Positions 3,942-32,152 of a stretch of 32,152 bases of DNA are shown here, piece after piece; within the stretch, counting starts at the first letter, position 1; each line of letters begins with the position of its first letter. Origin of the DNA: Lentimicrobiaceae bacterium (GTDB lineage: Bacteria; Bacteroidota; Bacteroidia; Bacteroidales; UBA4417); the NCBI GenBank assembly GCA_028697555.1, contig JAQVEX010000029.1, positions 1 to 32,152 of the forward strand, given 5' to 3'. The notes under the pieces are model-generated. The model did no database searches, was not told the DNA's origin, and saw nothing but the letters and a program-made list of their open reading frames with translations. A program made the translations under genes and the position numbers.

Positions 3942-3970
3942 TTTCAGTACTATTAGATAAAATCTTGAAG

Positions 3971-4060
3971 TTGGAGTTGCGGGTTGCGAGTTGCGAGTTG
4001 TGTTTTTTTTGCAATTAATAATTAACAATGAATAATTATCAATTATTAATTACTGACTGA
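3971..4060. repeat. Two adjacent 7-bp-period arrays
   Basis: The first array (3971-4001) is built of GCGGGTT/GCGAGTT-like heptamers. The second (4012-4060) is seven AT-rich heptamers in perfect register, such as CAATTAA, TAATTAA, CAATGAA and TAATTAT. In the second, 4013-4023 is the exact reverse complement of 4041-4051, so it can form an 11-bp hairpin. The arrays begin about 30 bp after the stop of the upstream plus-strand gene. Confidence 0.75.
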
Positions 4061-4338: not shown

Positions 4339-4404
4339 CATATAAAAAAGAATAGAAACTATAAAGCTAAATTTTGTCACAATTCCATATTTTGGGACAC
4401 AAAA

Positions 4405-4458
4405 GCTAATAGCCAATGGCTAATAGCCAACAGCCAATAGCTAACAGCTAACAGCTAC
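4405..4458. repeat. 7-bp-period array (GCTAACA-type)
   Basis: Seven complete heptamers and a partial one in unbroken register: GCTAATA, GCCAATG, GCTAATA, GCCAACA, GCCAATA, GCTAACA, GCTAACA, GCTAC. It lies about 40 bp beyond the stop of the sialidase gene, in its 3' untranslated region. Confidence 0.8.
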
Positions 4459-5595: not shown

Positions 5596-5816
5596 GATGT
5601 ATTTTTTATTTGACGTTTAAATTGATTGTTGTGTTACGTGTTGTCCCGAAGTTTCGGGATGTTACGGGTTAGTTCTTAGTTTTGAGTTCTGAGTATCGAG
5701 TATCGAGTTCTGAGTTCTGAGTTCTGAGTTCTGTCCCGAAGTTTCGGGAGAGTTCTGAGTTCTGAGTTTACAAACTCCTAACTCCTAACTCCCAACTCCT
5801 AACTCCTAACTATCTC
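5596..5816. repeat. Intergenic 7-bp-period array with embedded TCCCGAA hairpins
   Basis: The 301-bp gap upstream of the sialidase and downstream of exbD holds no gene. From about 5631 to 5816 it is a heptamer array: GTTACGT-like units, then repeated GAGTTCT/GAGTATC units, then inverted AACTCCT units. The GAGTT cores of the left half pair with the AACTC cores of the right half, giving a long imperfect hairpin in which about five of every seven positions match. Two perfect 7-bp hairpins TCCCGAA-GT-TTCGGGA (5644-5659 and 5734-5749) are embedded in it. The sialidase promoter should lie at the left of this gap but I do not see a clear TAnnTTTG. Confidence 0.75.
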
Positions 5817-10223: not shown

Positions 10224-10429
10224 GGTGTTACGGGTTATCCCGAAGTTTCGGGACGTGGTGCGGGTTGCGGGTTACGGGTTGCGTGGTGCGGGTTGCGGGT
10301 TGCGTGGTGCGGGTTAGTTCTGAAGTTTCGGGATGTTGCGGGTTAGTTCTGAGTCAGGAGTTCTGAGTTATGAGTTCTGAGTTCCGAGTTTCAAAACTCC
10401 TGACTCGAAACTCAAAACTCGAAACTTCG
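10224..10429. repeat. Long 7-bp-period array with TCCCGAA hairpin and inverted right end
   Basis: The 318-bp gap between tRNA-Cys and the gene at 10482 holds no coding sequence. Most of it is a heptamer array. Units run from GCGGGTT/ACGGGTT/GCGTGGT on the left to GAGTTCT/GAGTTAT in the middle and to inverted ACTCGAA/ACTCAAA at the right. The right-hand units pair with the GAGTT units. A perfect TCCCGAA-GT-TTCGGGA hairpin lies at 10238-10253, and a copy with one mismatch at about 10319-10334. The array ends about 50 bp beyond the stop of the minus-strand gene. Confidence 0.75.
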
Positions 10430-12119: not shown

Positions 12120-12164
<45 letters not shown>

Positions 12165-14842: not shown

Positions 14843-14950
14843 GGTACGTGTTGCGTGTTGCGAGTTGCGTGGCAATTAGCAATTAACAATTAACTAAGTT
14901 TAGCCTTTAGCCAATAGCTAACGGCTAACGGCTAATGGCTAACAGCTAAC
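14843..14950. repeat. 7-bp-period array whose unit changes in register
   Basis: Fifteen heptamers and three further bases without a break in register: GGTACGT, then GTTGCGT-type units, then AACAATT-type, then TTTAGCC twice, then AACGGCT/AATGGCT/AACAGCT. The array ends one base before the stop codon of lptC. The unit changes completely along the array while the 7-base spacing is kept. Confidence 0.85.
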
Positions 14951-23766: not shown

Positions 23767-26217
23767 TTGAGCATTTACAAAAATAACAATAAGGGAGTAG
23801 AAACAAAAGTCGGGTTTGGTAGCGTAAAAGACATGATAAACGGCTTTTGCAAAGGTGATATTGGCAAAAATTTAGTTGCCGAAATGCAATTTATTACTGA
23901 CCCAACTGAGCTCAACAATTTACTTCAAACAACTTTTGAGATTAAATCCCTAATACAGCAAGGAAATTTTCCTTCTATGCAGGAATATTTTTCTTTAGAT
24001 GAAACCTTAGATTTATTAGCGGTTGAAGGTACATATTTAGAGACTGAGCAATTAGTCGTTTTCAGAAACAACTATCAAATTTACACTGATTTTTTCTTGT
24101 ATTTATCGAAAGTAGATGCAGAAAAGTTTCCGCTCATAACAAGTTTAAATTCCAACAATTATATTGATGAAGACATTATTCAGCTCATATCCGAAGTTAT
24201 CAATGATTTTGGAGAAGTAAGAGACGATGCTTCCGAATTGTTGAGGGAAATACGTGCTGAGCTTTCAAAATCGAATCAGAAGATAGAAAATACAATGCAA
24301 CGTTGCTTGAAGCAGTCGGTTAGCAGTGGAATATTGCCCTCGGATACCGAAATTGTCATCAGAAATGGTATATCGGTTATCCCAATAAAAAGTGCCAATA
24401 AGCGACAAATAAAAGGTTTGGTAATAGATGAGTCTTCCACGGGACAGACTTCCTATATTCAGCCTTTTGAAGTTATTGAAGCAATTAACAGGAAAAAGGA
24501 ATTGGGACTTGCCGAAAGACGCGAAATTGTTAAAATTCTGATACAGCTGACAAGCAAGTTGCGACCGCATTTCAGACATTTTAAAGATTCTACGCACTTT
24601 TTAGGAAAATTAGATTTTGTAATTGCTAAGGCAAAGTTTTCAATAGACAATAATTGCAATTTGCCGCAGCTCACCGACCAACCTATCGTTGATTGGAAAA
24701 ACGCCAAGCATCCCTTATTAAATATATCGCTAAAAAAACAAGGCAAAAAAATTGTGCCTTCTAGCATTAAAATCACATGCGATGATAGGATAATCGTGCT
24801 GTCGGGACCAAATGCCGGTGGCAAATCGGTTACACTTAAAACTTTGGGTTTGTTGCAATATATGTTGCAATGTGGAATTTTAATTCCTGTTGATGATGGC
24901 AGCGTAGCCGGAATTTTCGAACATATTTTTATTGATATTGGCGACCATCAATCTATTGAAAATGATTTGAGTACCTATTCAAGTCATTTGTTGCACATAA
25001 AACAACTGTTAGAGATAGCCAACGAAAAAACATTGTTTTTAATTGATGAGTTCGGCTCCGGAACCGACCCGCAATCTGGTGGGGCAATTGCCGAAGCGGT
25101 TTTGGAACAACTCAATTCGGTTAAAGCTAAGGGATTGGTTACAACTCACTATTCAAATCTGAAGAAAATGGCTTACGAACAAGATGGGTTTGTTAATGCT
25201 GCCATGCTTTTCGATATGCAATTAATAAAACCGCTGTACAAGCTCAACATAGGCAATGCAGGCAGCTCTTTTGCTTTTGAAATAGCCGCTTCTATTGATT
25301 TTCCGACAAACGTAATTGAAAAAGCGTCGGGTAAGGTTGGGTATTCTCATCTTAATTTTGAAAGAGAGTTGCAAAACTTAGATGCTGAGAAGGATAAAAT
25401 TATTCAGCAAAAGAAACAAATCGCTGAAGCCGACAAAACTCTCAATCAACTTGTTGAAAAGTACGAAACGCAAATCAAAGAGCTTAACGATAGCAAGCAA
25501 GCCGAATTGAAAAAAGCTTACAAAGAAGCGCAAGACATTATTAATAATGCAAACAGAATAATTGAAAATACGGTTAAAAACATCAAGGAAACTAAGGCTA
25601 ACAAAGAAAATATTAAAAAGCAACGCGAGATTGTAAAACAATTTAAAGATGAAGTTGCAGAAAAAAACAAAGAACTTTCTGACGTAAAGTTAAAATCAAA
25701 GTCAAAAAGCAAGAAAAAATCTGCTGATATAGTACCTATTATTGCAGGTGCAGAAGTTGTTGTGGGTAGCATGGTTAAACTTCCCGATTCAAATATGGTA
25801 GGCGAAGTTGTAAACATCAATCAAAATGAAGCTCTGATAGCTTTCGATAATCTTAAAATGAAAGCAAACATAAATCAGTTGCAGGTTGTGCATCCAAAAT
25901 ACAAGGGTACTACACAGCAACAAGGCGGTTCCGCAAGTTTGGGCACATTTTCCTTAAGTCAAAAATCTGAGCAATTTAAGTCGGGCATAGACATAAGGGG
26001 AAAAAATGCGCAAGAAGCTACCGATATTGTTGAAAAGTATTTGCAAGAAGCAAGTATGTTGCACGTGTACAGTGTGGAAATACTTCACGGCAAAGGCGAT
26101 GGAATACTAAGGAATGTTATTCGCCAAATGTTGTTAAAAAATAAATTGGTAAAAAGTTTTGAAGAAGCACCTATAGAAATGGGTGGCAGCGGAATAACGA
26201 TTGTTAATCTTTATTAA
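23767..26217 (+). CDS. mutS2: Endonuclease MutS2 / Smr-domain DNA and ribosome-associated ATPase (TTG start)
   Basis: An 816-residue MutS2. In different bacteria MutS2 suppresses homologous recombination or splits collided ribosomes. The MutS-like core and clamp region (about 1-330) precede the ATPase: Walker A SGPNAGGKSVTLKT (about 345-358) and Walker B LFLIDEFGSGTDP (about 423-435), followed by VTTHYSNLK. A long Lys/Glu-rich coiled coil with a KSKSKSKKK patch (about 540-655) leads to a KOW/SH3-like segment and the C-terminal Smr domain with GIDIRG (about 739-744) and HGKGDGILR (about 774-782). TTG at 23767 is chosen because an in-frame TAA lies 15 bp upstream with no ATG. The stop is 4 bp from that of the convergent gene. 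Confidence 0.95.
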   Translation: MSIYKNNNKGVETKVGFGSVKDMINGFCKGDIGKNLVAEMQFITDPTELNNLLQTTFEIKSLIQQGNFPSMQEYFSLDETLDLLAVEGTYLETEQLVVFRNNYQIYTDFFLYLSKVDAEKFPLITSLNSNNYIDEDIIQLISEVINDFGEVRDDASELLREIRAELSKSNQKIENTMQRCLKQSVSSGILPSDTEIVIRNGISVIPIKSANKRQIKGLVIDESSTGQTSYIQPFEVIEAINRKKELGLAERREIVKILIQLTSKLRPHFRHFKDSTHFLGKLDFVIAKAKFSIDNNCNLPQLTDQPIVDWKNAKHPLLNISLKKQGKKIVPSSIKITCDDRIIVLSGPNAGGKSVTLKTLGLLQYMLQCGILIPVDDGSVAGIFEHIFIDIGDHQSIENDLSTYSSHLLHIKQLLEIANEKTLFLIDEFGSGTDPQSGGAIAEAVLEQLNSVKAKGLVTTHYSNLKKMAYEQDGFVNAAMLFDMQLIKPLYKLNIGNAGSSFAFEIAASIDFPTNVIEKASGKVGYSHLNFERELQNLDAEKDKIIQQKKQIAEADKTLNQLVEKYETQIKELNDSKQAELKKAYKEAQDIINNANRIIENTVKNIKETKANKENIKKQREIVKQFKDEVAEKNKELSDVKLKSKSKSKKKSADIVPIIAGAEVVVGSMVKLPDSNMVGEVVNINQNEALIAFDNLKMKANINQLQVVHPKYKGTTQQQGGSASLGTFSLSQKSEQFKSGIDIRGKNAQEATDIVEKYLQEASMLHVYSVEILHGKGDGILRNVIRQMLLKNKLVKSFEEAPIEMGGSGITIVNLY

Positions 26218-26221
26218 AAAA

Positions 26222-26575
26222 TTAAAGTAAGGCGATATTTTTTCTGTCCTTGTAAGGAAGCTTAGCCATTACGCAATTGTACGATTGCTTAATCCACAAA
26301 AGTAAAGTTTCGTCGTCAATGCTGCCATCAATTTTTACAGTATTCCAATGTTTTTTGTTCAAATGAAATCCTGGGGAAACGGCTTCGTACATTTCTCGCT
26401 GATTTACAATAAGTTCAGGAGTGTTTTTTATTGATATGGCAAATTCTTTTTCTAAATCTGTTAATAAAAATATTTTGTTAAAAATTTTAAAAACCAAAAC
26501 TTCGTCATCAAAAGGAAAGCCTTCTGTAACGTGGGGTAGGGAAAGACAAAAATCTCTAAGTTCTTCAATATTCAT
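26222..26575 (-). CDS. MmcQ/YjbR family protein
   Basis: A 117-residue protein of the MmcQ/YjbR family, small cytoplasmic proteins with a CyaY-like or double-wing fold and possible DNA binding, whose role is not settled. Diagnostic parts are the N-terminal NIEELRDFCLSLPHVTEGFPF (in part), the central VLVFKIFNKIFLL, and GFHLNKKHWNTVKID near residue 73-87. Length is normal. It is a single gene, convergent with mutS2 (4 bp between stops) and divergent from the carboxyltransferase gene. Confidence 0.9.
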   Translation of the reverse strand: MNIEELRDFCLSLPHVTEGFPFDDEVLVFKIFNKIFLLTDLEKEFAISIKNTPELIVNQREMYEAVSPGFHLNKKHWNTVKIDGSIDDETLLLWIKQSYNCVMAKLPYKDRKNIALL

Positions 26576-26648
26576 AAAAAAAACATTTCTTGTTTGATGA
26601 TTTATAAAAAATTGCTATTATTGTAAATTAATTTGAAAAATAACTGAC

Positions 26649-26656
26649 CAAAAATA
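26649..26656 (-). promoter_or_regulatory. Putative -7 promoter element for the MmcQ/YjbR gene
   Basis: The minus strand reads TATTTTTG, matching TAnnTTTG, 73 bp before the ATG at 26575. The stretch is very AT-rich, so chance is a real alternative. Confidence 0.3.
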
Positions 26657-26679
26657 TAAATAATTTAAAAACAAAAACT

Positions 26680-28227
26680 ATGGCAACAAATTCAAAATCA
26701 GTAGATTTAAAAAGAAGAATGCAAGCTGCCTTAAAGGGCGGTGGAACTAAGGCTATTGAAAAACAAAAAGCTACAGGAAAGCTAACTGCCAGAGAACGTA
26801 TTCAGGCGTTATTAGACCCCAAATCATTTTACGAATATGATTTATTTGTAAGCCACGCTTCAACCGACTTCGACATGAGCGACAAATATTTGCCAGGCGA
26901 CGGTGTAATTACAGGAACAGGAACCATAAACGGTTTTCCGGTTTGTATTTTTGCACAAGACTTTACTGTTGCCGGCGGCTCTCTTGGTTTTGCTCACGCA
27001 AAAAAGATAACCAAAATTATGGATCACGCCATGAAACTTAAAGTACCTTTAATTGGTATTAACGATTCGGGTGGAGCGCGTATTCAAGAGGGCGTTAACT
27101 CACTTGCAGGTTACGGCGAAATTTTTTATCGCAATACGCAAGCATCGGGAGTTATACCACAAATTTCGGTAATTTTAGGACCTTGTGCAGGCGGCGCTGT
27201 GTACAGCCCGGCTCTTACCGATTTTGTTTTTGTGGTTGATAAAATTTCAAAAATGTTTATCACGGGACCCGAAGTTATTAAAACAGTATTGGGCGAAGAA
27301 ATTTCAATGGAAGAATTAGGCGGAGCCAGAGTGCAAGCGGAAACTACAGGTAACGCTCACTTCTTTGCAGAAAACGAATTTCAATGTTTTGAGCAGATAA
27401 AAAAATTATTCAGCTATATTCCGTGGAATAACACTAAAAAAGCTGATGTTTTTCCTAAAAAAGCACCCAGAACAAAACATTTTGACCTTTCTAAAATTTT
27501 CCCAAATAATCCACGTCAGCCCTACGATGTTAAAGATATCATTAGAGCCATAAGCGACGATTCAGAATTTTTAGAAGTTCACGAACATTTTGCAGCAAAT
27601 ATAGTTGTTGGATTTGGCAGAATTAACGGTATGACAGTTGGTTTTGTAGCCAATCAGCCACTTGTGCTTGCAGGCGTTCTCGACGTTGATTCCAGCGATA
27701 AAGCAGGACGTTTTATTCGCTACTGCGATGCATTTAATATTCCTTTGGTTACTTTCGTAGATTTACCTGGTTATCTTCCTGGCGTCGACCAAGAGCATGC
27801 CGGCGTTATCCGTCACGGGGCAAAAATTTTGTACGCGTACAGCGAGGCAACAGTGCCAAAAATCACTATCATCACACGTAAAGCATATGGTGGTGGTTAT
27901 ATTGCTATGTGTTCTAGCCACTTGCGTGCAGATTTCGTATTTGCGTGGCCCTCAGCTGAAATTGCGGTTATGGGACCCGAAGGAGCAGCTAATATTATTT
28001 TCAGAAATGAAATTAGAGAAGCGGAAAATCCCGAAGAAGTTAGAAAAGAAAAGATTAAAGAATATAAAGAAAAATTTGCTAATCCATACGTGGCTGCTGC
28101 ATACGGTTATGTTGATGCAGTTATAAACCCTGAGGAAACAAGAGAAATGATTATACATGCTTTAGATATTTCGAAAGATAAAAAGGTTGAGACTCCTGCT
28201 AAAAAGCACGGCATTCCGCCATTTTAG
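26680..28227 (+). CDS. Acyl-CoA carboxylase carboxyltransferase subunit (propionyl-CoA carboxylase beta / methylmalonyl-CoA decarboxylase alpha type)
   Basis: A 515-residue carboxyltransferase of the crotonase-fold family that moves CO2 between biotin and an acyl-CoA, most likely propionyl-CoA/methylmalonyl-CoA. The N-terminal half shows KLTARERIQALLD (about 29-41), FAQDFTVAGGSLGFAHAKKI and the acyl-CoA oxyanion region NDSGGARIQEGVNSLAGYGEIF. The C-terminal half shows VDLPGYLPGVDQEHAGVIRHGAK and TRKAYGGGYIAMCS. The end KKHGIPPF is typical. A biotin carrier gene follows after 54 bp. Family resemblance cannot separate an ATP-driven carboxylase from a sodium-pumping decarboxylase. The missing partner subunits would decide and are not in this window. 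Confidence 0.93.
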   Translation: MATNSKSVDLKRRMQAALKGGGTKAIEKQKATGKLTARERIQALLDPKSFYEYDLFVSHASTDFDMSDKYLPGDGVITGTGTINGFPVCIFAQDFTVAGGSLGFAHAKKITKIMDHAMKLKVPLIGINDSGGARIQEGVNSLAGYGEIFYRNTQASGVIPQISVILGPCAGGAVYSPALTDFVFVVDKISKMFITGPEVIKTVLGEEISMEELGGARVQAETTGNAHFFAENEFQCFEQIKKLFSYIPWNNTKKADVFPKKAPRTKHFDLSKIFPNNPRQPYDVKDIIRAISDDSEFLEVHEHFAANIVVGFGRINGMTVGFVANQPLVLAGVLDVDSSDKAGRFIRYCDAFNIPLVTFVDLPGYLPGVDQEHAGVIRHGAKILYAYSEATVPKITIITRKAYGGGYIAMCSSHLRADFVFAWPSAEIAVMGPEGAANIIFRNEIREAENPEEVRKEKIKEYKEKFANPYVAAAYGYVDAVINPEETREMIIHALDISKDKKVETPAKKHGIPPF

Positions 28228-28281
28228 TATTTCAGTTTTTGTGATTTTATTTTTATTAACTGTAATTTTAAAATTTGAAAT

Positions 28282-28854
28282 ATGGAAAAAGATAATACTA
28301 AAATAAATAAGGACACTAGCGCTAAAGAACAGCCGACAAAGGGTAGAGAACCTGTAAAGGCTAAGACGACTGCAAAAGCCAAAGAGCCGGCTAAGACTGT
28401 TAAAACTGAAGCAACAGCTAAAACGGTAAAAGCAAGTGCAAAAGTTGAAAAGGCAGTTCCGGTGGCTAAAGAAAAAGAGCCTGTTAAAAAAACTGTTGAG
28501 CCTGTCGTAGCAGCAAAACCGGCTGAAAAAGTCGAAAAATCCGAAGAGCCAAGCTACAAAACACTTCTGATAGGTGATGTTAGATACAGAACGCTTTTTA
28601 CCAATAAGTTTTTAAACCGCAAAAAATATGTTGCAAAAGACCCAAACGAGGTTTTTTCTAACATTCCCGGAACGGTTAAAAATGTTTATGTAAAAAAGGG
28701 TCAAAGAATTAAAAAAGGCGATCCGGTTGTAGACATGGAAGCAATGAAGATGGTAAACACAATTTTCTCACCCGACAATGGTAAGATTAAAGAAATTTGT
28801 GTCAAAGTGAACGAAAAAGTTCCTAAAAACGCCAAGCTGTTCTCTATTGAGTGA
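28282..28854 (+). CDS. Biotin carboxyl carrier protein with Ala/Lys-rich linker
   Basis: A 190-residue biotin carrier partner of the carboxyltransferase just upstream. Residues 1-95 are a low-complexity linker rich in Lys, Ala, Glu, Pro and Thr with repeats such as KAKEPAKT and KEKEPVKKT. A short segment SYKTLLIGDVRYRTLFTNKF (about 93-112) may dock onto the carboxyltransferase. The C-terminal biotinyl domain (about 115-190) has VDMEAMKMVN, with Lys156 as the biotinylation site, and the usual KGDPV and PKNAKLFSIE. The stop codon TGA lies at the left edge of a 7-bp-period repeat array. Confidence 0.93.
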   Translation: MEKDNTKINKDTSAKEQPTKGREPVKAKTTAKAKEPAKTVKTEATAKTVKASAKVEKAVPVAKEKEPVKKTVEPVVAAKPAEKVEKSEEPSYKTLLIGDVRYRTLFTNKFLNRKKYVAKDPNEVFSNIPGTVKNVYVKKGQRIKKGDPVVDMEAMKMVNTIFSPDNGKIKEICVKVNEKVPKNAKLFSIE

Positions 28855-28913
28855 TGGGTGATGGGTGGCGGGTGTTGGGTGGCGAGTCTCTTCACTCATC
28901 ACCCTTCACTCAC
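28849..28913. repeat. 7-bp-period array forming a hairpin between two convergent genes
   Basis: Nine heptamers in register from 28851: GTGATGG twice, GTGGCGG, GTGTTGG, GTGGCGA, GTCTCTT, CACTCAT, CACCCTT, CACTCAC. The 19-nt arm 28849-28867 matches the reverse complement of 28893-28911 at 17 positions, so the array folds into a long hairpin. It contains the stop codon of the biotin carrier gene (28852-28854) and of the four-helix-bundle gene (28910-28912). A bidirectional terminator is a likely role. Confidence 0.8.
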
Positions 28914-29269
28914 TTGATTTTTGCTTCTAATTTTTTGATTAGATTTATCAGTTGTTTTCTGGTTACCACAATTAATTCTAAAATGTCATCTATCGATCGT
29001 ATATATTTTTGTCTATAAGCTATGTATATTTGAGTTTCTAATTCAGCTATGGAACCAAGGGAGACATAACAAAACTGAATATATTCTTTTGTGTTCTTTC
29101 TATTAAACCCTTCTGCAATATTAGATGGAATAGAAACAGCACATCTTCTTATTTGAGATGTTAGAGAGAAAAGTTCATCCTTAGGGAACTGTTTAGTTAA
29201 TACATATATTTTATCAACTAAATCCATTGCGTTGTTCCAAACATCCATGTCTTTAAATGAAAGTATCAT
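28910..29269 (-). CDS. Four-helix-bundle protein (S23 / 23S rRNA intervening-sequence family)
   Basis: A 119-residue protein of the four-helix-bundle family first seen in intervening sequences of 23S rRNA genes, related to the Avd accessory protein of diversity-generating retroelements. The family pattern is clear: SFKDMDVWNNAMDLVDKIY at the start, FPKDELFSLTSQIRRCAVSI, PSNIAEGFNRKNTKEYIQF and GSIAELETQIYIA. The frame is open to a GTG at 29335, but those added residues are partly encoded by the repeat array. MILSFKD at 29269 gives the normal length. Its molecular role is unknown. It is bracketed by two repeat arrays that share a 24-bp near-identical segment. Confidence 0.9.
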   Translation of the reverse strand: MILSFKDMDVWNNAMDLVDKIYVLTKQFPKDELFSLTSQIRRCAVSIPSNIAEGFNRKNTKEYIQFCYVSLGSIAELETQIYIAYRQKYIRSIDDILELIVVTRKQLINLIKKLEAKIK

Positions 29270-29304
29270 AATTTTGTTTTTTATTCGGTGGTCTGTGATT
29301 TTTA

Positions 29305-29353
29305 GTGGCAAGTCTCTGCACTCATCACTCATCACTCATCACTCATCACCAAC
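29305..29353. repeat. 7-bp-period array (CACTCAT-type) overlapping the end of engB
   Basis: Seven heptamers in register: GTGGCAA, GTCTCTG, CACTCAT four times, CACCAAC. The first 24 bases match 28879-28902 in the array on the other side of the four-helix-bundle gene at 22 positions. The stop codon of engB (29339-29341) and its last few codons (GDE and the preceding residues) lie in the array. Confidence 0.8.
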
Positions 29354-29944
29354 CACCATTATTAATTGTTCAATATAAGCATATAACTCATCTATCCCAA
29401 TATTTTTATTGGCTGATGTTACAAAAATAGGAGGAAGGGATTCCCAGTCTTCCAAAAGTTTTTTCTTATACTCCGATAGGTTGTTTTCGTATATTTTTTT
29501 GGAAAGTTTGTCGCGTTTAGTGAAAACTATACAAAACGGTATGCCGTTTTTGCCAAGCCAGTCGATAAATTGCAGGTCAACGTCAAGTGGCAAATGTCTT
29601 AAATCAATGAGCAAAAACAAGCATAAAAGGTTATTCCTTTTGATTAAATAATTTTTTATTACGTTTTCCCAATCTTTACGTTTGCTTTTTGCAACCTTAG
29701 CATAGCCGTAGCCAGGCAAATCTACTAAATGCCAACTCTCATTTATTAAAAAGAAGTTTAGATGTTGAGTTTTGCCTGGGGTCGACGATGTTTTGGCTAA
29801 GCCTTTTATTCCGGTAAGTTGATTTATCAACGAAGATTTGCCCACATTCGACCTGCCGAAAAATGCAAATTCCGGTATATTGGCTGTTGGGCAGGTTTTT
29901 AAACTAACCGCCGACTTAACAAATGTTGCGCTGGTAATACTCAC
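29339..29944 (-). CDS. engB: Ribosome biogenesis GTP-binding protein EngB (YsxC/YihA)
   Basis: A 201-residue TRAFAC-class GTPase needed for assembly of the large ribosomal subunit. The G1 loop is GRSNVGKSS (about 30-38), a conserved Thr-rich switch I region with KTSSTPGKTQ follows (about 51-60), G3 is DLPGYG (about 75-80), G4 TKRDK is near 142 and G5 TSANK near 175. Length and motif order are those of EngB. It lies 4 bp after the GlsB-like gene, so it is probably in one transcript with it. The last codons are formed by a repeat array, but the length is normal. Confidence 0.96.
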   Translation of the reverse strand: MSITSATFVKSAVSLKTCPTANIPEFAFFGRSNVGKSSLINQLTGIKGLAKTSSTPGKTQHLNFFLINESWHLVDLPGYGYAKVAKSKRKDWENVIKNYLIKRNNLLCLFLLIDLRHLPLDVDLQFIDWLGKNGIPFCIVFTKRDKLSKKIYENNLSEYKKKLLEDWESLPPIFVTSANKNIGIDELYAYIEQLIMVVGDE

Positions 29945-29948
29945 TTTT

Positions 29949-30887
29949 TTATTTATTCTTGTTTACAACAAGGTCAATGTATCTTTCTTTTTTCTCTTCC
30001 TTTACATCATCTATTAACATCAATATTCCCGACTCTTCAACATCGCCAAATTCCTTGTTTAAAGATGTTCCGAAAAACAACATAGTATCCGACAAATTCA
30101 TATAGGCATTGACAAGTGGCGGTATGTGAGTTTCTTGTTTTCTGACTTCTTTGTTTAAAATTTTATAGTCGTCGTCGTAATTATCGGCATTGAATATTTT
30201 TTCGTATTCGGAAGCATCGCCGAAATATGTCAAAGGTTCGTGCGGAACAACTAACTTTTCTTTGTCGCCAAAGTGTTTGTTCAAGAAAAACAGTATAAGG
30301 TCTCTGGCGTATTTATCGTACGATAAGTACATAGTAATTTTGCCGAAAAAGTATTTTATTTCAGGTTTCGAGAAAACCAAAGCACCCAATCCGTCCCAAA
30401 TATTATCCAACGCAAATATACCTTTACGTGGATTATTTTGTGGCTGATAATCAGGCTGAACAAACGACCTGCCCAACTCAATTGTGTAGGGTAAATAATT
30501 AGCAATAAATTCCTTTGAAAAATCGAAAAGATGAGCCGTAGGAGTTGAAACATTTCCGGCTTCGTTAATTTCAAGTTCGTGTCCTTCAATGTATCTGTAG
30601 CCACCAATAATTTCTTTTTCGGTAGGATCCCACACAATTAGTTGTTTGAACGGATTTTTTGGCGATAAATCAAACTCATCTAAGTCTATTTCTTTTCCTG
30701 TACCACCACCGGCATCTCTAAACGTTACTTCTCTAAGTCTGCCTATCTCTTTAAGGGTATTAGGAGCATTGTGGCAATCTATCACATGAACTTGTCTGTT
30801 AGCTTTAAAAGTTCTACATAGCAATGTAGATTCTGTAAGTTCTTTTTCAATAAGTGATTTTTCTATCGGAGGAATTATTTCTTTCAT
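29949..30887 (-). CDS. glsB: GNAT-family N-acyltransferase, OlsB/GlsB-like
   Basis: A 312-residue acyltransferase of the OlsB-type GNAT family. In Bacteroides GlsB transfers a hydroxy fatty acid to the amino group of glycine, the first step of glycine lipid synthesis. The block EIGRLREVTFRDAGGGTG (about 49-66) followed by EIDLDEFD is typical of these proteins, and IVWDPTEKEIIGGYRYI and ELGRSFVQPDYQ are further GNAT/OlsB blocks. The frame allows an ATG at 30923, 6 bp after the upstream gene. MKEIIPPIEKSLIEKELT at 30887 matches my memory of the family start better. The upstream gene encodes a PlsC-like O-acyltransferase, the expected GlsA partner. The substrate is inferred from family and context. 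Confidence 0.82.
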   Translation of the reverse strand: MKEIIPPIEKSLIEKELTESTLLCRTFKANRQVHVIDCHNAPNTLKEIGRLREVTFRDAGGGTGKEIDLDEFDLSPKNPFKQLIVWDPTEKEIIGGYRYIEGHELEINEAGNVSTPTAHLFDFSKEFIANYLPYTIELGRSFVQPDYQPQNNPRKGIFALDNIWDGLGALVFSKPEIKYFFGKITMYLSYDKYARDLILFFLNKHFGDKEKLVVPHEPLTYFGDASEYEKIFNADNYDDDYKILNKEVRKQETHIPPLVNAYMNLSDTMLFFGTSLNKEFGDVEESGILMLIDDVKEEKKERYIDLVVNKNK

Positions 30888-30929
30888 TGTCGTATTGTTT
30901 ATCGTTATGTGGTAAATTTCCAATGCAAA

Positions 30930-31793
30930 TTACGGTATAAATTTACCATCGGGGTTATTTTTTAAGCTATATACAAATTCTTTTACCTTTTGAGCCCATT
31001 CATTATCATTGTACCTGTTATCAAATGTAGTGTACGGTATTGGCGAGCCAAAAGTAATTGAAAAATGCTTACCTTTTTGTTTATACATTTCGTCGGGCAA
31101 ATATATCATTTCAATATTAGCTTTAATACCTAATTTCTTTCTCATCGAAGCTATATTGTAAAACTTTTTGGAATTAACCGCATCTATGTAGCAAGGGATA
31201 ACATCTCGCTTGTGGGTAACGGCTTTTTTAATAAAAGTTTTCTTCCATTGCAAGTCGCAAATAATCTTATTTTGTTTTCTTGAGCATATGCCGGCAGGGA
31301 AGTACAAAATAGTTTTGTCGGAAGCAAAAGTGTCTTCTATGCTTTTTATGTTGTCTTTGTTGCTTCCGTGCTTGTTTATGGGAATAAACAACTCGCTAAG
31401 GTTATCTAAATTCATAAGCAAGTCGTTGACCGGAAAAACAATGTTTTTGTTTTTTTTGCCGACAACCCATAGCAAGGCTATGCCATCTAAGCCGCCCAAA
31501 GGGTGATTGCCGGCTATAATGTAGCGTTCGTTGGCTTTTATATTGTCAATTCCGTAATAATCAACCTCAGCTCCAAATTCGGTAATTATGGCATTCACAA
31601 AGTCGTGACCATGCAAATGCTTATTTCGCGATATAAAATCGTTTATTTCGTCCTGATGTATTATTTTTTTCAACCTATTGACTACAAATTTTGGTAGCCA
31701 TTTGTGCAAAGTAGGCGATTTAGATAGTATAACTTCGTCAACATCAATAAGTTTAGACTCGTTTTGTGTTTTTATTTCATTATCTATTGCCAT
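30930..31793 (-). CDS. glsA: PlsC-like O-acyltransferase, GlsA-like
   Basis: A 287-residue acyltransferase of the PlsC type. In Bacteroides GlsA adds the second acyl chain to an N-acyl glycine made by GlsB. The active-site block is NHPLGGLDG (near residue 95-103), in which His and Asp are separated by five residues instead of the usual four, a form I recall from Bacteroidota members. The second block is FPAGICSRK (near 170), the glycerol-phosphate-site analogue. An upstream in-frame TTG at 31811 overlaps the TAnnTTTG element at 31809-31816, so the ATG at 31793 is the start. The gene leads the operon glsA-glsB-engB. A general 1-acylglycerol-phosphate acyltransferase is the alternative. Confidence 0.82.
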   Translation of the reverse strand: MAIDNEIKTQNESKLIDVDEVILSKSPTLHKWLPKFVVNRLKKIIHQDEINDFISRNKHLHGHDFVNAIITEFGAEVDYYGIDNIKANERYIIAGNHPLGGLDGIALLWVVGKKNKNIVFPVNDLLMNLDNLSELFIPINKHGSNKDNIKSIEDTFASDKTILYFPAGICSRKQNKIICDLQWKKTFIKKAVTHKRDVIPCYIDAVNSKKFYNIASMRKKLGIKANIEMIYLPDEMYKQKGKHFSITFGSPIPYTTFDNRYNDNEWAQKVKEFVYSLKNNPDGKFIP

Positions 31794-31808
31794 GGTTAAA
31801 CTTTTTTG

Positions 31809-31816
31809 CAAAGTTA
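31809..31816 (-). promoter_or_regulatory. Putative -7 promoter element for the glsA-glsB-engB operon
   Basis: The minus strand reads TAACTTTG, matching TAnnTTTG, 15 bp before the ATG at 31793. It excludes the upstream TTG as a sensible start. Confidence 0.5.
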
Positions 31817-32011
31817 AATAAAAATTATATAAGTAAATTTTGTGTAATTAATTTCAAAATTAAAAGATGAAAAATTCCACTTTGTTTTATGTAATCTTTA
31901 TCAAAATATCATTTTAATATTATATATAAATTAAAAAATACCACTTTTCATTAATTTCGATAAAAATCTGTGTTAAACACCTGTATTTACACCATAAAAT
32001 CGCATAAAAAA

Positions 32012-32046
32012 TCCCAAATTAGAGAATTTCTCTAATAATTATGGGA
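32012..32046. other. Palindromic stem-loop in the right-hand intergenic region
   Basis: ATTAGAGA (32018-32025) pairs with TCTCTAAT (32029-32036), and the flanking TCCCA (32012-32016) pairs with TGGGA (32042-32046). It may be a terminator or a protein-binding operator. I cannot tell which. Confidence 0.45.
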
Positions 32047-32121
32047 AAATGTTTTTCGTTGCAATAGCTGATTTGATAAGGGCTCACTGCGTTGTTAATA
32101 AAAAAATAGTGTAGAAAAGTG

Positions 32122-32129
32122 TAAATTTG
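32122..32129 (+). promoter_or_regulatory. Possible -7 promoter element reading out of the window
   Basis: The plus strand reads TAAATTTG, matching TAnnTTTG, about 23 bp from the right edge. It would serve a plus-strand gene beyond the window. Confidence 0.25.
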
Positions 32130-32152
32130 TGGGATATTGTTGTAATTTTACC

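Follow-up and report, generated by a model that had tools for sequence, protein, structure and literature searches.

Background

The intervening sequences (IVSs) found in some 23S rRNA genes are among the closest described counterparts of the locus reported here. The 23S IVS of Coxiella has a 28-bp terminal stem and, immediately before its S23 ORF, two to three tandem GACAGAT heptamers, RNase III cleaves at the first repeat, and the heptamer copy number varies among strains (PMC4990558); a pentameric Xanthomonas structure of the protein is cited in the same paper. Heptamer arrays have also been described in their own right. The GGGAATC arrays of Xanthomonas lie mostly right after an ORF (28 nt on average), form 70-75 convergent inverted pairs and are stated to be generally unassociated with mobile elements (PMC4692102). 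Other heptameric repeats are GGGGATT in Nostoc (PMC4692102), TAACTGA in Beggiatoaceae (PMC4679880) and the heptanucleotide elements of Geobacter metallireducens (PMC2700814), and the published heptamer repeats have largely been read as regulatory or quadruplex sequences (PMC4692102, PMC4679880, PMC2700814). In the portion of the literature that was searched, no paper connects four-helix-bundle (4HB) genes to heptamer arrays other than those of rRNA IVSs.

Here we describe a 4HB gene of the S23 family that is bracketed by heptamer arrays in a spacer between protein-coding genes. With a probability of about 0.8, we regard it as part of a mobile unit with heptamer-array terminal inverted repeats that inserts in operons and would be an intercistronic relative of the 23S IVS.

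The 4HB locus and its arrays

The window, that is the whole stretch of DNA analysed, comprises 32,152 nt of a Lentimicrobiaceae genome (GCA_028697555.1, contig JAQVEX010000029.1). The features of the locus are as follows.

28282..28854, + strand: biotin carboxyl carrier (BCCP, Biotin_lipoyl; Pfam PF00364) gene, convergent neighbour
28849..28914: array unit on the 3' side of the 4HB gene (on the sense strand, C-rich terminal arm)
28910..29269, - strand: 4HB (S23 / 23S rRNA intervening-sequence protein) gene, 119 aa, MILSFKDMDVW...
29287..29357: array unit on the 5' side of the 4HB gene (on the sense strand, the G-rich terminal arm is (GTGATGA)4, followed by a GAGACT loop and a short C-rich arm)
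29339..29944, - strand: engB/ysxC (TIGR03598, 229 bits), upstream host gene, co-directional with the element

The encoded protein matches PF05635 (E=7.9e-36; 122.9 bits, curated cut-off 33.8) and TIGR02436 (121.4 bits, curated cut-off 24), both above the cut-offs, which agrees with its assignment to the S23/IVS family by an earlier reading of the sequence alone; its PDB relatives by profile are 2GSC and 2RLD. That sequence-only reading had also noticed two near-identical segments enclosing one gene, and the pair at 28879-28902 (GTGGCGAGTCTCTTCACTCATCAC) and 29305-29328 (GTGGCAAGTCTCTGCACTCATCAC) was indeed found to be identical at 22/24 positions and 426 bp apart. It extends to 34 nt at 88%, and an additional inverted pair of 27 nt (81%) is present at the locus. 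The earlier description was right in position and partial in content, as both copies lie in the middle of palindromes with a 7-bp period, each made up of a G-rich arm, a GAGACT-type loop and a C-rich arm; the 4HB gene is therefore flanked by direct as well as inverted repeats.

On the + strand, the unit at 28849..28914 consists of the G-rich arm GTGATGGGTGATGGGTGGCGGGTGTTGGGTGG (about 28851-28884), the loop CGAGTCTCTT and the C-rich arm CACTCATCACCCTTCACTCAC, and the BCCP gene takes its stop codon, TGA (28852-28854), from this unit. The end of engB (..MVVGDE*, the last codons and the stop) falls inside the unit at 29287..29357, in which TRF reported 29319-29349 with period 7 and 100% identity. 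Read on the gene strand, (GTGATGA)4 opens the unit before the gene, and repeats of the CACCCAT type close the one after it, so that the outer arms are complementary. The locus is the engB-BCCP spacer and not a 23S rRNA gene, and no rRNA was detected in an Rfam scan of 26000-32152; Rfam searches with the hairpin returned chance microRNA-like matches alone, all sub-threshold. Elsewhere in the window, a perfect (CT)20 dinucleotide run occupies 12123-12162.

Heptamer arrays in the source genome

In 20 sampled stretches of the source genome (G000), 53 period-7 arrays were found in 432 kb, compared with 0-1 at each of the other periods between 4 and 20, multiples of 7 excepted. The array structure is far beyond chance and is no local accident. 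Ordinary genes of this genome had arrays on some side in 74 of 295 cases and on both sides in 6 of 295, and five of the seven 4HB genes were array-flanked on both sides as judged by eye (three as judged by the strict detector). The sequence-only reading had suggested looking in the genome for further 4HB genes flanked by the same arrays; array-flanked ones are present, and each of the five has its own heptamer (GTGATTx, GTGATGA, AGTCGGA, GAGTTCT and GTGCGTG).

Arrays without a gene are also present in the window.

5671..5811: solo inverted pair of heptamer arrays (GAGTTCT.. / AACTCCT..), of a sequence type like the element ends
3969-4052, 4404-4457, 10254-10426 and 14847-14950: more solo arrays

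Solo arrays are unusually dense in this small genome (2.3 Mb) and use several different words. The array density is 1.5 per 10 kb, compared with about 0.2 in congeners with genomes of 3.6-6.2 Mb. Among the 15 congeners and other Bacteroidales, arrays are generally rare (about 0.2 per 10 kb), yet they are frequent beside 4HB genes, and about 0.2 Mb from genomes lacking 4HB genes contained none. Across 28 genomes, array density did not correlate significantly by rank with 4HB gene number (rho 0.22, p 0.25). The solo arrays are probably gene-less derivatives, either internal deletions or decayed copies.

GIY-YIG genes, a family of small, mobile-looking genes, served as the control in the same genomes; arrays were found at 0/30 of their loci and at 16/34 4HB loci (p=5e-6). 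At the GIY-YIG loci (L301-L330), which include tandem copies, the inverted-flank scores were somewhat raised (17.2, n=17), and these genes may have their own kind of ends.

4HB loci across phyla

The best 80 relatives among 84,980 species genomes gave 78 usable loci. The loci of this survey and of the larger set below do not sample the family at random, having been selected for their likeness to Bacteroidales proteins. These 80 come from Bacteroidota, Proteobacteria, Planctomycetota, cyanobacteria, Acidobacteriota, Gemmatimonadota, Patescibacteria, archaea and others. A period-7 array was located within 300 bp of the gene at 30 of the 78 loci, and larger control stretches at a distance of 1.1-1.7 kb gave 4; period-8 arrays were found at 7 loci, and arrays with periods of 4-6 or 10-12 at none. 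In a set of 129 4HB loci from many phyla, strict 7-mer arrays were nearby in 52 and 7- or 8-mer arrays in 70, more than half of the loci being array-less by the strict detector, and the arrays contain 56 distinct heptamers. The flavobacterial loci L094 and L097, among others, have period-8 arms (AGGTTATGGAGTTATG..) that move with the gene between genera. None of the 4HB loci has a conserved 16S/23S motif. Purifying selection acts on the protein (dN/dS 0.02-0.20 for family members), and the element contains this single ORF, which is non-catalytic.

The two arms differ in composition and match each other. Over the 129 loci, G and C make up.34 and.14, respectively, of the arm before the gene, and.13 and.31 of the arm after it. 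The upstream flank, compared with the reverse complement of the downstream flank, scored 21.4 within a locus and 12.2 (sd 2.9) against other loci, with 28 of 78 loci above the 99th percentile; a separate comparison of flanks gave 24.8 for own and 13.3 for swapped pairs. Among orthologs, own arms paired with a score of 19.3 and arms of different orthologs with 13.0, which indicates that the arms coevolve. In 12 non-orthologous pairs with at least 65% protein identity the arms are similar (score 22 vs 10), and half of these pairs reach an arm score of at least 22, compared with 0.6% of other pairs. The arms and the gene thus travel together, to unrelated sites, and the arms then diverge quickly. 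The effect is confined to pairs above 65% identity; over all pairs, array similarity and protein identity showed no global correlation. Array copy number varies between orthologs and strains (L337 vs L341).

When folded as RNA, the element is closed by a stem, with z values of -3.5 for the window, -5.1 for the Bosea locus and -6.2 for the Thiohalocapsa locus. The duplex energies of the sense and antisense strands do not differ, and as both strands fold equally well, folding cannot separate RNA from DNA.

Placement in operons

Between co-directional genes, 95 elements were sense and 5 antisense according to a simple ORF caller, and at least one of the five is a caller error (L155, between carA and carB). 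The arrays start at a median of 5.5 nt past the upstream stop and end at a median of 17 nt ahead of the downstream start. Host gene pairs verified by profile are nuoC/nuoD (Bosea), accB/accC (Rhodanobacter), ahcY/metF, dnaB/recR and pglZ/brxL; the annotated plasmid sites are beside traM-like, integrase, trb, AAA-ATPase/parB and cas6/cas4 genes, all sense. The sense bias may be due to selection rather than to the mechanism.

Some of the host operons serve in defence: pglZ-4HB-brxL (BREX) was found in Thiohalocapsa (L142), and cas6-4HB-cas4 in Anabaena (L353) and, with different arms, in Pseudanabaena galeata (L357). In the cas6-cas4 spacer of Dolichospermum (L354), which is 99% identical here to that of Anabaena sp. 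90 (L353), another palindromic insert (GTAGGTTGGGTTGACGC..GTTGGGTTGCG..CCCAACCTAC) stands where L353 has array, 4HB gene and array.

Filled and empty sites on plasmids

The 4HB family was found on 43 of 72,556 plasmids, mostly of heterocystous cyanobacteria, and in 0 of 50,697 phage records. Filled alleles on Trichormus and Scytonema plasmids could be aligned with empty alleles on Aulosira and Tolypothrix plasmids that are 97-98% identical. The Trichormus and Aulosira plasmids differ by exactly 428 bp, corresponding to a 423-bp element, which begins AAATCAGAATTCAG and ends CTGAGTTCTTCTTT, and a 5-bp duplication of GTAAT, in which a stop codon is contained. The empty allele reads AAAAAGTAATTAACAAAT and the filled allele AAAAAGTAAT / AAATCAGAATTCAGAAGTCAG ... 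gene ... CTGACTCCTGAGTTCTTCTTT / GTAATTAACAAAT. A piece of about 420 bp of this element occurs alone at other sites with 78-83% identity. At L335, compared with L347/L348, the element is located within a TAATG stop-start overlap and both genes are whole. Target duplications of 6-7 bp (TTCTAA and TACTAAG) are probable at two more sites, so the duplication is clear at one site and probable at two, and its length varies; at the traM and integrase sites, a short stretch of spacer was replaced. One further copy (L349) is decayed.

Mobility is well supported. Comparison of loci shows that the unit consists of arms and gene, that it is recent at many sites, that clean insertions occur, with at least one target duplication, that its orientation is sense, that its arms are complementary and coevolve, and that its protein is under purifying selection.

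A serious rival to an element with a transcript-linked step is DNA-only transposition of the MITE kind, in which a transposase or integrase from another locus would use the arms as terminal inverted repeats, the 4HB gene would be cargo, there would be no RNA stage, and the sense bias would result from selection against operon disruption. The terminal inverted repeats, the clean-ended 5-bp duplication with the two probable ones, and the existence of gene-less derivatives are all in line with it. On the other hand, 56 distinct heptamers and no conserved end sequence would be difficult for a sequence-specific transposase, nearly all insertions are sense, and the target duplication is not of constant length. 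We consider this explanation possible, with the odds somewhat against it.

Filled and empty sites in congeners

In all 15 congeners the gene order around engB, BCCP and carboxylase is kept, and the engB-BCCP gap contains neither a 4HB gene nor an array, measuring about 50-200 bp in the congeners vs about 490 bp in the source genome. The sequence-only reading had taken the gene for a possible cassette that can be lost, and a movable cassette that can be absent is supported: the 15 congeners lack the gene at this site, and 5/7 4HB genes in the source genome are array-flanked, contrary to the refuting condition which that reading had set. A sister copy in the source genome (L001), 79% identical in protein to the window copy, has related arms and other neighbours, which means that one copy, if not both, moved in the source lineage. 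Presence also varies at other sites: L085 and L086 were found in G003 only, being missing from other genomes and even from G013, a sister with 90.6% identity; L076 and L078 are confined to G003 and G013, and L075 is missing in G003.

The same reading had proposed that a heptamer array was there first, and that the gene entered it with duplication of the array or can be lost by recombination. Short solo palindromic arrays in the gene-less alleles of the L085 site (G007, G009 and G013), and a short ATTACGA array in Pseudanabaena ABRG5-3 where a relative has array, gene and array, could be taken in its favour. The solo arrays of the L085 site are of other heptamers, from which it follows that array and gene histories are not always identical, and at some sites the gene may have been lost with a solo array staying behind. 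Nevertheless, the single-array, gene-less allele foreseen for the engB-BCCP site was seen in none of the 15 congeners, the empty plasmid alleles (L339, L340, L347, L348 and L344) are array-free, and the arms travel with the gene; in the plasmid pair of 97-98% identity, the inserted unit has the arrays as its termini. We therefore regard prior arrays as an unlikely origin.

It is similarly improbable that the element is a domesticated regulator, with hairpins and protein kept for regulating the host operon. Such a role would suit the strong purifying selection and the fixation of some copies in one place across genera (ortholog clusters, and L007/L080/L091, which have no arrays), but the host operons have no common function, most sites are sporadic and element-less alleles are common. 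L007, L080 and L091 (in G000, G013 and G003) are a divergent array-less 4HB gene ahead of the same downstream gene (MTKIRAFQGLLPPVE.. and close relatives), a copy apparently vertically kept and domesticated. At L087 (G003), a long array of CATTGAACCCTTGAACGCGAAG-type repeats lies downstream of the 4HB gene. Replication slippage around an ordinary small operon gene, with no mobility, would account for the varying copy number (L337 vs L341, and the Coxiella strains; PMC4990558), but is refuted for most copies here and highly improbable overall, given the precise filled and empty alleles, the mutual complementarity of the two sides, the 0/30 control loci with an array and the spread over unrelated operons.

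Proposed mechanism and significance

Returning to the mobile S23-gene unit, we propose an element of about 0.4-0.5 kb composed of a heptamer-array arm, the S23/four-helix-bundle gene and a complementary heptamer-array arm. It would insert between operon genes in sense, directly past the upstream stop and before the ribosome-binding site of the next gene, a placement that would leave the host genes intact and have the element transcribed and translated with them. The arms would pair in RNA (and in single-stranded DNA) to form a long stem, with the gene in its loop. The pentameric protein may bind the heptamer arms or the stem, with a role in mobility or stability, and by analogy with the rRNA IVS, RNase III may cut the stem. 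The catalytic step would be supplied in trans and, in view of the sense bias, is rather more likely to be coupled to transcription or to have an RNA stage than to be neither.

Extended further, the elements could represent a widespread class with transcript- or RNA-coupled insertion at stop-codon/spacer junctions of operons, carrying a 4HB pentamer and mutually complementary heptamer ends that are free to change, and could be the source of 23S IVSs and of the arrays of Bacteroidota, cyanobacteria and xanthomonads; we advance this tentatively, at somewhat short of an even chance. It would join two open questions, the nature of the S23 protein and 23S IVS and the origin of over-represented 7-bp repeats, in one testable hypothesis. 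The clean filled and empty alleles in culturable cyanobacteria (Trichormus ATCC 29413, Tolypothrix and Nostoc) offer an experimental entry. As the elements stand in core (nuo, acc) and defence (pglZ-brxL of BREX, cas6-cas4) operons with the genes unbroken, annotators may take the small 4HB gene for an operon member.

Comparison with known systems

An attC/integron cassette was rejected, with one gene per site, no integrase and no attC-like recombination site seen; a CRISPR-like array and terminator-only hairpins were likewise rejected. The Avd protein of diversity-generating retroelements, the partner of reverse transcriptase, is a distant four-helix-bundle homolog (bAvd 6e-6, DivGenRetAVD 1e-5), but the DivGenRetAVD score of 25.8 bits is far below the cut-off of 80, and neither a reverse transcriptase nor template/variable repeats were recognised at the window locus. 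REP/RAYT systems resemble the element in having dispersed palindromes and a bracketed gene; here, however, the bracketed gene encodes a pentameric four-helix bundle and not a Y1 (TnpA_REP) transposase.

Like MITEs, the element is short, intergenic and without transposase, with terminal inverted repeats; a target duplication, also typical of MITEs, is clear in the Trichormus and Scytonema plasmids and probable at two other sites. MITEs are defined by no coding capacity and by derivation from a known autonomous transposon, whereas the element has a conserved, selected gene of 119 aa, tandem-array ends without conserved sequence, and strict sense orientation.

The published heptamer arrays are 7-bp tandem arrays and mostly intergenic, as the element arms are, but no four-helix-bundle gene has been linked to them. 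On the basis of one genome group and the cyanobacterial plasmids, we propose that they are solo ends or derivatives of 4HB elements.

A close likeness is to the 23S rRNA IVSs with an S23 ORF in Coxiella, Leptospira and Brucella (PMC4990558). In both, the ends are complementary and form a stem whose loop holds a gene of one protein family, the length is about 0.43 kb, tandem heptamers stand directly before the ORF, and the unit belongs to the host transcript. The element differs in that its hosts are protein-coding operons and its site a stop-codon/spacer junction instead of an rRNA helix, and in having long heptamer arms with their own word at each locus, clean empty sites and, clearly at one site, a target duplication.
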